This document shows, piece after piece, positions 27,043-54,627 of a stretch of DNA of 64,000 nt (within the stretch, counting starts at the first letter, position 1; each line of letters opens with the position of its first letter). A program made the position numbers and the translations under genes. The notes below the pieces were generated by a model, which was not told where the DNA came from, did not search any database, and saw only the letters and a program-made list of their open reading frames with translations. This DNA is from Paraflavisolibacter caeni. GTDB taxonomy: Bacteria > Bacteroidota > Bacteroidia > Chitinophagales > Chitinophagaceae. The DNA lies in contig NZ_JAOTIF010000004.1 of the NCBI RefSeq assembly GCF_025628885.1, forward strand, positions 1-64,000, in the 5' to 3' direction.

Positions 27043-27310
27043 ATAGGTGGTTTTTTAATACATGAACTAAGCCCTACACTGATCTTAATTAAGTTGCCAA
27101 TTACTTAGGAATAAAGTGACGCACAGCGTTTTTCATCGATTTTGTAGAAGTGGATGTTTCTATTACCAGAGCTACTCTTTCGCACAAATGCTGATTAAAA
27201 ATATAGTGTTTAATTGTTTTCTCATAGCCTCACTTGCATGAAACTGATGCTTTCTGCCGCTTTGCTGAAGGCAGGAAATGCAACTACTTCCCATCTCTCA
27301 ACTCACCTCT

Positions 27311-27883
27311 CTAAATCCGCAATACCTCACACCCATCCTGTTTCCCATATACTACTGCCACTTCTTGTCCAATTATTTCTTTTTTCCACCAAATTTGCCA
27401 AGGCCCCATCTGCTCAAACCCATTCCTATCTTTCATCTCCACCCTTTCCCTTCTGCCTGTGCTCATCATAACCCTCACCGCCAACTGCTTTCTCAGCCAC
27501 TGCTTATCCCCCTGCATGTTCATATACAACCGGATAGCCGCCTGGTAGACATGTTTCCTCTTCTTCCTGGGCAGGGTCTTTCGGAAGGCCTCCTTCCTTT
27601 CCGCATCCGAGAGGATCCACTGGGCATAGACCACGGCCTCCCGGAACAGATCCCTCCTTACCCGCTGCTTTTCAGAAGCCACCACTCCACTCATGTCCGG
27701 GTACTTGGTGATCACAATCCTTTTCTTCCACTTCTTTTTCTTGTTGGCCCGGTAGTGCTTCACCACAAAGCACTTCCCAATGGAGCCCCGGATGATGCCC
27801 AGCAGCAGCCGGGACATCACCTTGTCATCCACCACCACCAAGCGGGTCCTGTTGTCAATGTAAAGCTGTTTCATCTTTTTCAT
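27311..27883 (-). CDS. Hypothetical basic protein next to 11-bp repeat arrays
   Basis: This 190-residue, strongly basic protein begins MKKMKQLYIDNRTRLVVVDD. It has many Lys/Arg runs (NKKKKWKKRIVITKYPDMSG, TLPRKKRKHVYQAAIRLYM). It also contains ASEKQRVRRDLFREAVVYAQ and a C-terminal stretch GPWQIWWKKEIIGQEVAVVYG. No signal peptide or known domain is seen. The charge suggests nucleic-acid or ribosome binding. The opposite strand has a long open frame here (27278-28045) but it is Pro/His/Leu-rich shadow coding. The 600 bp upstream are filled with 11-bp-periodic repeats, which may share its history. Confidence 0.6.
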   Translation of the reverse strand: MKKMKQLYIDNRTRLVVVDDKVMSRLLLGIIRGSIGKCFVVKHYRANKKKKWKKRIVITKYPDMSGVVASEKQRVRRDLFREAVVYAQWILSDAERKEAFRKTLPRKKRKHVYQAAIRLYMNMQGDKQWLRKQLAVRVMMSTGRRERVEMKDRNGFEQMGPWQIWWKKEIIGQEVAVVYGKQDGCEVLRI

Positions 27884-27982
27884 TTCCCCCTAAAGCTAGG
27901 GCTGCCCATCCACCCCTCCAACCCCTCTGGCCGCTTTGGCAGGAAATGGCAGGAAATGACCGCTTTTGTCCGCTTCCCCTTC

Positions 27983-28081
27983 AGGTTACAAGTAGGGATC
28001 CTTCGTAGATCAAGTATACCTGAAGCATACCATCAGTATACCTAGAGTATACCTACAGTATGCCCCCTTCGTTCCTGAACC
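27983..28081. repeat. 11-bp-periodic repeat block A (nine units)
   Basis: Nine consecutive 11-mers run in strict phase. The core units are atacctgaagc, ataccatcagt, atacctagagt and atacctacagt (28016-28059), flanked by more diverged units such as aggttacaagt. On the minus strand the core reads GGTATACTnnA. Eleven is not a multiple of three, so the block is not coding. It lies 100 bp upstream of the basic hypothetical gene, with aggaaatggc/aggaaatgac between them. Confidence 0.8.
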
Positions 28082-28175
28082 CCTTTTTCCCAATCCCCCT
28101 CCACTGCCTCCTCCATCAAAAAATCCTATTCCTCCCTTTCTAATCGTGCAAATCCGCGGTTCATCTTTCGTTGCT

Positions 28176-28230
28176 CAGCCCTACCTGAGCCCTACTGAAT
28201 CCATAGCTAAGCCTAGGAAAAGCCTAGAAA
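28176..28230. repeat. 11-bp-periodic repeat block B (five units)
   Basis: The five in-phase units are cagccctacct, gagccctactg, aatccatagct, aagcctaggaa and aagcctagaaa. The minus strand shows TAGGGCT repeated at 11 bp, a core that recurs in the block at 54.5 kb. The sequence between blocks A and B is pyrimidine-rich with no clear unit. Confidence 0.75.
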
Positions 28231-28327
28231 ACCACTTTTATCTCCCATATCATGCCATTCCAATACCCCAATACCTCATTTCACCTTTCCCTATGGACCA
28301 ATAATCAATAATTAATTATTAATAATC

Positions 28328-28404
28328 CAGCATCTGCTATCCATCATCTTCCTCCTACCTGCTCCCAGGATACTCCCTACCAAAGCCCAGGATAATGCCT
28401 GAAA
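28328..28404. repeat. 11-bp-periodic repeat block C (seven units)
   Basis: Read on the minus strand the units are tttcaggcatt, atcctgggctt, tggtagggagt, atcctgggagc, aggtaggagga, agatgatggat and agcagatgctg. ATCCTGGG recurs at 22 bp. The stretch ATCCTGGGCTTTGGTAGGG is almost identical to 54507-54525 on the plus strand. It ends about 140 bp before the next gene. Confidence 0.75.
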
Positions 28405-28547
28405 ACGCAAATCTTTTATTCTGCAATCAATAATTCGGGTATACCTTACAGTAATTCCCGAAATAAACTTAATTGCCCTTTTTTGTAAATCCGGCAAATC
28501 ATTTGATGTAGCTCTTCTTTAGTAACAGTACGGCTAAGCAATATCAG

Positions 28548-30038
28548 ATGGAACTATCAGAAATAACAAGAAGAAGCATATACACATGTTGGGCTTTATG
28601 GATTTTAGTACCATTAAAAGCTCAGAATTCTTTTAGTCGTATTGTCGCGCCTGATTCTGTAACAGTGGTGGCCAGTGAAAAATTTAAGAATCCAACTGTG
28701 CTTGAGCGCTTTTTAATCGGGGAAAATTATAGCAAAGTGTGGTCCACAGCCGTAAAGATGCCGGTATTCCGGTTGACTCATACCGATATGAAAGTCGTTG
28801 AGCTGGGTGGTGGACAACAAACAAAATCCCTGAAATTGGAAGACCACCAGGGTCGTGAATGGTCCCTGCGCACTGTAGATAAGGACGCTGCTGGCGCTAT
28901 TCCAAAAGTGATGAGAGGTACTTTAGTCCAAACGATTGTACAGGAATCAATTTCAGGTTCTTTTCCTTATGGTGCATTAGTTGCCGGTTCCCTGGCAAAA
29001 TCTGTTGGAGTCGTGGCGCCGGATCCTGAATTGTATTATGTACCTGCTGATGCGGGATTGGGAAAATACCAGGATATTTTTACTGGTAAGGTTTGTTTTT
29101 TAGAAGAAAGAGAACCTACTCGGAAAAAAAGTGAAAAAACGGAAAGTACGTTGGAAGTAAAGGAAGACATCTTTGAAGCAAACGACCGGCTGGTCCTGCA
29201 GCGTGAAGTGTTAAAGGCCCGCTTATTGGATATGTTGATCGCCGATTGGGACAGGCATGCAGACCAATGGAGGTGGGGCATAGTCGATTCCACGAAGGCT
29301 AAATACTATTATGCAATACCGAAAGATCGTGACCAGGCTTTCTTTTTGGCCAAAGGGTTGATCCCTCGGGTAGGCAAGTTTGTGGGCATGCATCATATCA
29401 ATTGGTTCAAAGATGAGGCAAAAGGACTCCAGTGGCTGAGTTATAAATCCTGGAATTTCGATCAGCTGTTTTTAAATGATTTGGATAAGGCTCAATGGGA
29501 AAGAACAACTAAGGAATTTATAACAAGACTGGCAGACCAGGAAATTGCTAACGCCGTGAATAGGTTGCCACCCGAAATCTATGCATTGAGCGGTAAAGAA
29601 CTGGAGAAGAAGTTAATAAGCAGGAGAAATTCTTTGCTGACCAATGTAATGAAATATTATAAGTATATATCCGAAAACGTTCAGGTAAATGGAACGAATG
29701 AAGATGAGATTTTCCAGGTGAGCGGAGCTGATAATGGTCTCAATATTTCTGTTTTCAGGGAAGGGGCCCAGGGGCAAAAAGGTACTAAGATCTATGAACG
29801 GAAATTTAAAAAAGGCGAAACTTTCCACATTTACCTGATGGGCTATAATGGTAACGACAAATTCCTGATCGATACCTCCGTAAATACAAAAATTAAAGTT
29901 TATATGTATGGCGGCGAAGGCCGTGATGAATACATATTCAATGGCAAAATGAGAAATGAAATTCGTGATTTCAACGGGAAAGAGGACATAATTTCCAAAT
30001 CATCCCACACAAAAGTTGCATTGGAAAAAGGAAACTGA
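28548..30038 (+). CDS. Secreted protein with HipA/FAM20/CotH-like kinase motifs, unknown function
   Basis: This 496-residue protein has a signal peptide (about 1-26, WILVPLKAQ). It carries a conserved-looking core: GGGQQTKSLKLED (88-100), EWSLRTVDKD (105-113), CFLEEREP (about 183-190), IADWDRHADQWRW (231-243) and AIPKDRDQAFF (257-266). DWDRHxxQ followed by DRDxAF resembles the catalytic and metal-binding motifs of HipA-, FAM20- or CotH-type atypical kinases. That assignment is inference. From memory, longer Bacteroidota relatives carry a C-terminal outer-membrane barrel. Here the protein stops after a beta-rich tail (VYMYGGEGRDEYIFNGK), so it may be a natural short form or a truncation. It stands alone. 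Confidence 0.6.
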   Translation: MELSEITRRSIYTCWALWILVPLKAQNSFSRIVAPDSVTVVASEKFKNPTVLERFLIGENYSKVWSTAVKMPVFRLTHTDMKVVELGGGQQTKSLKLEDHQGREWSLRTVDKDAAGAIPKVMRGTLVQTIVQESISGSFPYGALVAGSLAKSVGVVAPDPELYYVPADAGLGKYQDIFTGKVCFLEEREPTRKKSEKTESTLEVKEDIFEANDRLVLQREVLKARLLDMLIADWDRHADQWRWGIVDSTKAKYYYAIPKDRDQAFFLAKGLIPRVGKFVGMHHINWFKDEAKGLQWLSYKSWNFDQLFLNDLDKAQWERTTKEFITRLADQEIANAVNRLPPEIYALSGKELEKKLISRRNSLLTNVMKYYKYISENVQVNGTNEDEIFQVSGADNGLNISVFREGAQGQKGTKIYERKFKKGETFHIYLMGYNGNDKFLIDTSVNTKIKVYMYGGEGRDEYIFNGKMRNEIRDFNGKEDIISKSSHTKVALEKGN

Positions 30039-54385: not shown

Positions 54386-54506
54386 ACGTTGAGTAATCAG
54401 TACTAGTTTATGGCTTCAGCAGAGCTAAAGGTACGTTATTAAAACAGAGAATTCAATGGGTATCGGTGAGGGTTAGGAGGAAGTGAAATTTGCATTTTCA
54501 TGCTTT

Positions 54507-54627
54507 ATCCTGGGCTTTGATAGGGCTTTGGTATAGAGTAGACAGGGAGTTCCTATGCAGTTAGACAGCAGTAAGGTCTCTATAAGGTCTCTATAATGTC
54601 TCTATAATGTCTCTATTAGGTCGGGGG
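54507..54627. repeat. 11-bp-periodic repeat block D (eleven units)
   Basis: Eleven exact-length units fill 121 bp. They are atcctgggctt, tgatagggctt, tggtatagagt, agacagggagt, tcctatgcagt, tagacagcagt, aaggtctctat twice, aatgtctctat twice, and taggtcggggg. The first two units are nearly the same as block C read on the minus strand. The gap lies between the AraC gene and the GH65 gene. The graded divergence from left to right suggests tandem growth from the right end. Confidence 0.85.

Follow-up and report, generated by a model that had tools for sequence, protein, structure and literature searches.

Introduction

The defining feature of the protein in REP/RAYT systems is an HUH site with a nucleophilic tyrosine, the mark of an HUH/Y1 transposase. 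In the extract of one account, RAYT are described as combining a gene-linked repeat, dispersed copies, coevolution of the two and a gene that evolves fast while keeping its locus (PMC2817692); REP repeats themselves, according to an excerpt of another, are palindromes of 20–40 bp (PMC3733652). In parC/ParR, as far as the excerpted source goes, phased arrays lie upstream of the gene for a small DNA-binding protein, and a row of ParR dimers binds parC one repeat after another and also represses the gene (PMC5016525). Short repeats of 5–11 nt are a known phenomenon as well (extract of PMC4679880).

We analysed a window (the whole stretch of DNA under study, 64,000 nucleotides) in which blocks of 11-bp units lie beside a gene for a Lys/Arg-rich protein. 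By form, the nearest known repeats are the heptamer sets. Intergenic heptamer repeats (TAACTGA sets, long simple sequence repeats), as portrayed in the extract of PMC4679880, resemble the blocks in being short-unit intergenic arrays that are sporadic between genomes; the blocks differ in their 11-bp unit, tolerant sequence, strict length and linked gene family. In array geometry, ParR on parC is the nearest known case: parC/ParR, omega/parS and TubR/tubC iteron arrays share with our locus, in the excerpts available, a phased array upstream of a small gene. In open-licence PMC literature we found neither a described family of 11-bp arrays in Bacteroidetes nor this gene family. We propose, with a probability of roughly 0.55, that a family of small basic proteins, mostly of Chitinophagaceae, has a cognate helix-phased array which it binds, and that these arrays disperse.

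Results

An earlier note on this DNA had described three blocks of at least 21 units, with constant length and diverged sequence, upstream of a gene for a basic protein. This description holds: written in register the blocks contain 8 + 6 + 7 = 21 units, and they lie on the 5′ side of the minus-strand gene (Table 1).

Table 1. Features of the window
Feature	Position	Strand	Description
Gene for 190-aa Lys/Arg-rich protein	27311-27883	-	ORF; 1 of 22 near-full copies in the genome
Block of about 10-bp period	27928-27971	.	TGGCAGGAAA / TGACCGCTTT; between gene and array A
Array A	27990-28077	+	8 units of 11 bp; core NAGTATACCNN; CTTCGT units at both bounds
Array B	28171-28236	+	6 units of 11 bp; ends with GCCTAGAAAACCACTTTTA
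Array C	28328-28404	+	7 weaker units; ends with AAAGCCCAGGATAATGCCTGAAA, an end type recurrent in the genome
Second array of the window	54496-54622	-	same kind; orientation opposite, judged by the C-like end type

We compared the blocks (limits 27983-28081 for A, 28176-28230 for B and 28328-28404 for C) with dinucleotide-preserving shuffles. Identity at lag 11 was 0.545, 0.636 and 0.439, respectively, against shuffle means of 0.25–0.27, and was reached by 0/2000 shuffles for A, 0/2000 for B and 10/2000 for C. When any lag from 5 to 23 was allowed, the corresponding numbers were 0/1000, 0/1000 and 52/1000. The 11-bp periodicity of A and B is real without outside support, and that of C, taken alone, is borderline. 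Block C gains support, however, from near-unchanged copies elsewhere in the genome: 28358-28405 is 92% identical in L011, 28362-28389 is 100% identical in L036 and L040, and 28375-28415 is 98% identical in L013. An independent TRF run called period 11 at 28013-28061 and 28209-28231, with no period-11 call at block C. There was no lag-11 excess in the gaps between the blocks (values reached by 1254/2000 and 461/2000 shuffles). The block next to the gene has a different period, 10, detected at 27937-27958, and is also present in the gene-carrying copies inspected. The second array of the window includes four near-identical units of the AAGGTCTCTAT type and has the end type of block C.

Both the gene and the arrays are amplified in the window's 7.0-Mb genome, where the stretch 27900-28500 has 45 matches. 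The gene has 27, comprising 22 near-full-length copies (71–100% identity), the divergent and longer C11, and fragments. Of 23 gene copies inspected, 20 have an array with the AGTATACC core upstream; among the rest, L066 starts at a contig end, L065 has no array that we could see and the divergent L075 has a degenerate one. Over the first 137 residues of the 22 copies, median dN/dS was 0.11, with dN below dS in 231/231 pairs, and over the variable tail it was 0.42 (below 1 in 198/231 pairs). Judged by these substitution rates, the copies show purifying selection on the protein. With a median dS of 0.57 and a low dN/dS, the copies are old, and the protein has been maintained.

Many arrays of the same genome stand away from the gene. 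The sequence AGTATACCNNNAGTATACC, with up to 2 mismatches, has 150 matches in the genome versus 4 for a reversed control, and the CTTCG pattern CTTCGNNCATCCTTCG, with up to 1 mismatch, has 142 versus 0 for its control; matches overlap inside one array, and 150 and 142 are therefore not numbers of arrays. We sampled 38 array places (18 from the AGTATACCNNNAGTATACC search and 20 from among the matches listed for the CTTCG pattern), and at 37 of them no family gene was recognisable in the retrieved stretch, the exception being L032. Twenty of the 38, written in 11-bp register, keep one frame across many units of few related types, with occasional register slips (for example, in L126 and L128). 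The phase was tested in 19 own-genome arrays, 16 steps each, or 304 unit steps. Setting aside 73 ambiguous ones, the best predecessor offset of the remaining 231 was 11 in 202, 10 in 6, 12 in 1 and another value in 22, which bears out the earlier claim of a fixed unit length with diverged sequence. In addition, among the 38 arrays examined, both a start motif on the left and an anchor on the right were found in 17; the distance between the two equals 4 mod 11 in 11 of these, although in those 11 arrays it ranges from 158 to 235 bp. Of the 38 places, 19 lie between co-oriented neighbouring genes, 13 between divergent and 3 between convergent ones; 2 fall within an ORF, and 1 is at the edge of a contig. 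The places thus lean to the 5′ sides of genes, as far as predicted, unverified ORFs can tell.

To the right of the array, 29 of the 38 places share a module of about 150 bp, which indicates that the arrays spread by copying. The ends of the copies vary among members in this genome. The module (29 of L030-L047 and L113-L131) holds a possible degenerate short ORF (ATGCTCATAAATAAGGGGAAAAC...), and it often precedes heptamer-like AACTTCAAACTCC and ATTCGTCATTC repeats.

Of 97 other relatives, 4 yielded weak homologues of the protein. These five proteins are 29–39% identical to that of the window; four have about 100 aa and one (L051) has 192 aa. Four homologues, used as queries against named genomes, gave 34 loci (5 previously found under other ids), one or two per genome. 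They come from Cnuella, Lacibacter, Ilyomonas, Flavisolibacter, Niastella (3), Flavihumibacter (2) and Ferruginibacter (7), all of which we take to be Chitinophagaceae, and otherwise from other Chitinophagaceae or Bacteroidetes MAGs, one Sphingobacteriales, one Pseudopedobacter and one MAG titled Gammaproteobacteria.

We scored the 240 bp before each start for local lag-11 periodicity, with a threshold of 10. The score was at least 10 upstream of 22 of the 34 family genes, compared with 3/574 control windows from the same loci and 3/86 upstream regions of other ORFs. Lag 11 was the sole best lag in 21/34 versus 9/574 windows. The ATCCTTCG core was present upstream in 20/34 loci versus 6/574 windows, and twice or more in 10/34 versus 0/574. 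The arrays sit roughly 40–150 bp upstream of the starts. Downstream of the gene the threshold was reached in 3/34 loci (L191, L195 and L199), and in 0/20 of the window genome's own copies with enough sequence. Units are lineage-specific (CTTCGTTCATC, CCCAGTCCTAT, CCCCGTAGTAA and GACCCTAGGAT); their sequence varies with lineage, and their length is constant. The 34 loci are not independent (close pairs are L185/L186, L191/L198 and L195/L199). The association of array and gene across the family is shown statistically, and the view that strict 11-bp arrays are cognate to this undescribed family of genes is well supported.

The remaining 12 of the 34 loci are below the upstream threshold. L196, L200, L201 and L204 have a single inverted pair of the ATCCTTCGT/ACGAAGGAT type only, L182 has no obvious array upstream, and L214 has 7-bp repeats. 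In the close homologue loci L195 and L199, lag-11 periodicity occurs within 240 bp downstream only, and this is a poor fit to a simple operator. Eight further loci are more distant and, according to GTDB, lie outside the family; lag 11 was the best upstream lag in none of them and second-best in one, L083. Upstream of L079, which is the L214 locus, the 7-bp units are ATCAGCT-like.

The Niastella genomes allow the same locus to be followed between species. N. caeni, N. populi and N. soli carry the gene at one locus with the same neighbours, and the family protein is 67–73% identical between them, versus 83–95% for the neighbours; the gene keeps its locus and evolves faster than its surroundings. 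Upstream, five units of the TCATCCTAGGG type (gene strand) align without indels among the three species, and four units of Flavihumibacter solisilvae, in the aligned part, align with them equally free of indels. The Niastella-type pattern ATCCTRGGGTNATCCTRGGG was found in 5 of 10 genomes searched, namely the three Niastella, one Flavihumibacter and one MAG (one match), and in none of the four CTTCG-type genomes searched. It marks 5 places in N. caeni, 6 in N. populi, 3 in N. soli and 3 in F. solisilvae, against 0 for the control. The same lineage's unit is therefore common to gene-linked and gene-less arrays: the family gene was absent from all 13 retrieved stretches of array places away from the gene (0/13). 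Neighbours of the gene-less arrays in these genera include ferrochelatase, recG and pheT. An array precedes pheT in N. soli only and is missing in N. caeni and N. populi; at recG an array is present in N. populi only and missing in its two sister species. Neither type of empty site has a ATCCTRGGGTNATCCTRGGG match. The array before hemH is common to N. caeni and N. populi, and in N. soli this site aligns poorly and has no pattern match. Gene-less arrays thus differ between close species. Clean insertion boundaries or target-site duplications were not found at these sites, where occupied and empty sequences are too diverged for exact limits.

The earlier note had suggested comparing autocorrelation at lag 11 with other lags and looking for such blocks elsewhere. 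In 20 stretches of 20 kb of the window's genome, chosen at round coordinates, the commonest lags were 22 (7 segments) and 11 (5 segments), followed by lag 7 with 4, and blocks are present at other sites of the genome and in relatives, as described above. Neither check thus speaks against the note. The periodicity had been observed correctly and was understated. Of the earlier interpretation, the strict 11-bp phase stands, whereas membership of the blocks in a dispersed gene-plus-array family had not been foreseen.

Other genomes differ in this respect. In 200 kb of G003, of the same genus, lag 7 accounted for 13 segments, lag 8 for 8 and lag 11 for 1, and the preferred repeat period thus seems to vary within a genus. 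G012 was left out of this lag survey, as 7 of its 9 lag-11 rows came from runs of N. Arrays of period 7 and period 8 dominate the G003 sample (L163-L172). Of 98 genomes searched for the CTTCG pattern, only the window's genome (142) and G007 (63 versus 3 for the control) are rich in it, the others having at most 6 matches each. The 13 loci seen in G007 are composite multi-copy arrays in 11-bp register with shared flanks. The family gene was not found at these 13 loci, nor genome-wide in this 84% complete genome. Where both occur, the pattern lies at the gene in 2/2 matches in G012, 4/6 in G040, 1/2 in G005 and 0/1 in G024. Thus, the correlation between abundance of gene and of repeat is not clean: the window's genome is high in both, G007 has arrays without a detected gene, and several gene-bearing relatives carry few gene-less arrays.

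An alternative is that the arrays are slippage minisatellites that grew by chance beside an ancestral gene and hitch-hiked with it, 11 bp being a functionless slippage length. The mostly 7-bp intergenic arrays of G003, the 7-bp repeats at other family loci, the clear shuffling of unit types within arrays and the precedent of repeats of 5–11 nt (PMC4679880, in extract) are all compatible with this. However, gene and array stay associated in species whose units are unrelated in sequence, the phase persists as the sequence diverges, and only 3/574 control windows are periodic, which makes slippage a distinctly unlikely explanation.

Since 11 nt is also one turn of A-form helix, we considered that the array is transcribed into a leader RNA, the hairpins of which are sensed by the protein or the ribosome. 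The position of the arrays, within some 150 bp of the starts, would suit such a regulator. Folding z-scores were also low for some elements: 11 of 12 gene-less elements of Niastella and Flavihumibacter were at −3.0 to −9.1 (the other at −1.8), and four gene-linked ones at −2.6 to −6.3. In the window's genome, in turn, 19 gene-less arrays ranged from −0.3 to −4.9, and z was −0.7 for array A, −2.1 for A to C together and 0.0 for the 54-kb array. However, mean pairing of arms within elements (−50.0 kcal/mol, n=16) was no better than between arms of different elements (−48.7 kcal/mol, n=240; sd 12.4), and although 5 of 30 consensus pairs were changed on both sides, the covariation term of 0.12 amounts to no gain. 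We rejected a structured RNA on these grounds. In addition, many of the direct arrays fail to fold, Rfam gave nothing at E ≤ 1 for 27200-28700, and gene-less arrays occur in many gene contexts. A leader-RNA regulator is thus very unlikely. Because the arms pair no better within elements, the Niastella-type hairpins are better read as one kind of site present in both orientations; the equal pairing favours double-stranded sites.

The protein of the window has no Pfam, PHROGs or NCBIfam match at E ≤ 1 and no match in the genome contig collection, and a search of PDB sequences with the family profile gave a best E of 0.83. Its structural model was poor (pLDDT 63), and Foldseek returned nothing for it from PDB or BFVD at E ≤ 0.001. 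For the Cnuella homologue, the best of five models reached pLDDT 86 (the others 76–78); the predicted fold has three strands followed by three helices, and this model, too, had no Foldseek match at E ≤ 0.001. The C-terminus of L051 gave a weak winged-helix match, below curated cut-offs. An origin from plasmids was tried and rejected, as the window protein had no match in PLSDB, and so was an origin from phages, as the Cnuella homologue had no INPHARED match and a four-member profile no IMG/VR match.

The 190-aa protein could still be an unrecognised transposase, the arrays its binding ends, and the gene-less arrays MITE-like elements moved in trans. The 22 near-full gene copies, similarity to the window copy that stops at the element ends, the many gene-less arrays with their shared module, and the species-specific presence of arrays at pheT and recG would all be natural for a conventional transposable element. 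Five Tyr and two Asp are at least 90% conserved among 20 aligned members, which leaves room for a catalytic site, but no Asp, Glu, His or Tyr is invariant among these 20. No transposase family was matched in Pfam, NCBIfam or PHROGs, and no terminal inverted repeats or target-site duplications were recognised. Finally, the gene stays at one locus in Niastella and has one or two loci per genome among the named genomes scanned. We consider a conventional transposon unlikely.

Discussion

The favoured reading of the 11-bp blocks is that they are predicted helix-phased protein-binding sites. We propose that the cognate cis-element consists of direct, or direct and inverted, units spaced 11 bp apart, usually just upstream of the gene. 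Eleven bp is close to one helical turn of DNA, and the protein would most likely bind the units in register, its subunits lined up cooperatively along one face of the helix. Such a row of DNA-binding subunits is proposed because the spacing is constant and near the helical turn, the sequence is tolerant and the array lies at the basic protein's own gene. DNA binding by the family protein is suggested by its basic composition and by the array association. Binding at its own leader array would control its own gene. Gene-less arrays of the same lineage-specific unit behave as short, non-autonomous elements dispersed between genes, possibly with some help from the protein. The genetic logic resembles that of REP/RAYT, with unrelated parts.

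The likeness to REP/RAYT, as given in the extract of PMC2817692, lies in the position of the gene next to a repeat of its own, in further repeats that are scattered between genes without it, in the lineage specificity of the repeat and in faster evolution of the gene than of its syntenic neighbours. The H-x-H motif occurs in 0/23 own copies and 1/34 homologues, and the conserved part of the protein holds no HUH motif; the family protein also has no transposase family match. Instead of palindromes of 20–40 bp (PMC3733652, excerpt), the system has rows of 11-bp units, and these lie on one side of the gene (upstream in 22/34 loci, downstream in 3/34). We do not file the system under REP/RAYT, because it has no HUH site and the gene is not flanked on both sides.

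The resemblance to parC raises the question of whether the arrays are sites of chromosome architecture or partition, of the parC/ParR or parS type, with the protein as a nucleoid protein. Phased arrays upstream of a small gene indeed recall parC before its operon (excerpt of PMC5016525), and the sites are dispersed. Their number, however, varies widely by species, from few to more than 100 matches. No ribbon-helix-helix match was found for the family protein, and the three strands predicted before the helices in the best Cnuella model would differ from the one-strand topology that the excerpted source gives for ParR (PMC5016525). Gene-less 11-bp arrays, unlike parC, are dispersed genome-wide, and PLSDB offered no plasmid match for the window protein. 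Partition sites are thus a highly improbable explanation.

Our placing of the gene–repeat pair outside the known classes rests on these differences and on the lack of a match in databases and in the open-licence literature, rather than on its mechanism. Tentatively, it may represent a new class of gene-linked repeat, in which the protein reads the 11-bp phase rather than a fixed sequence, its arrays spread through genomes as short elements, and the REP/RAYT logic was reinvented independently without a recognisable transposase. If the proposal is right, a cognate protein exists for intergenic repeats that are scattered through genomes of a group of Bacteroidetes, and their origin becomes testable via one gene. 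There would then be a second, unrelated case of a gene-linked dispersed repeat beside REP/RAYT. Sites that keep their spacing while their sequence drifts would also offer a route to study helical phase in binding specificity.

A wider superfamily occurs elsewhere in the class (L080-L083, L086 and L088), with a similar N-terminal domain followed by a tail of about 90 aa; L080, L082 and L088 have no significant Pfam match. Upstream of L088, a GCTT run lies between inverted copies of a GC-rich sequence. The tails of these proteins have a common GD-x-I ... VEEG-x-A pattern.
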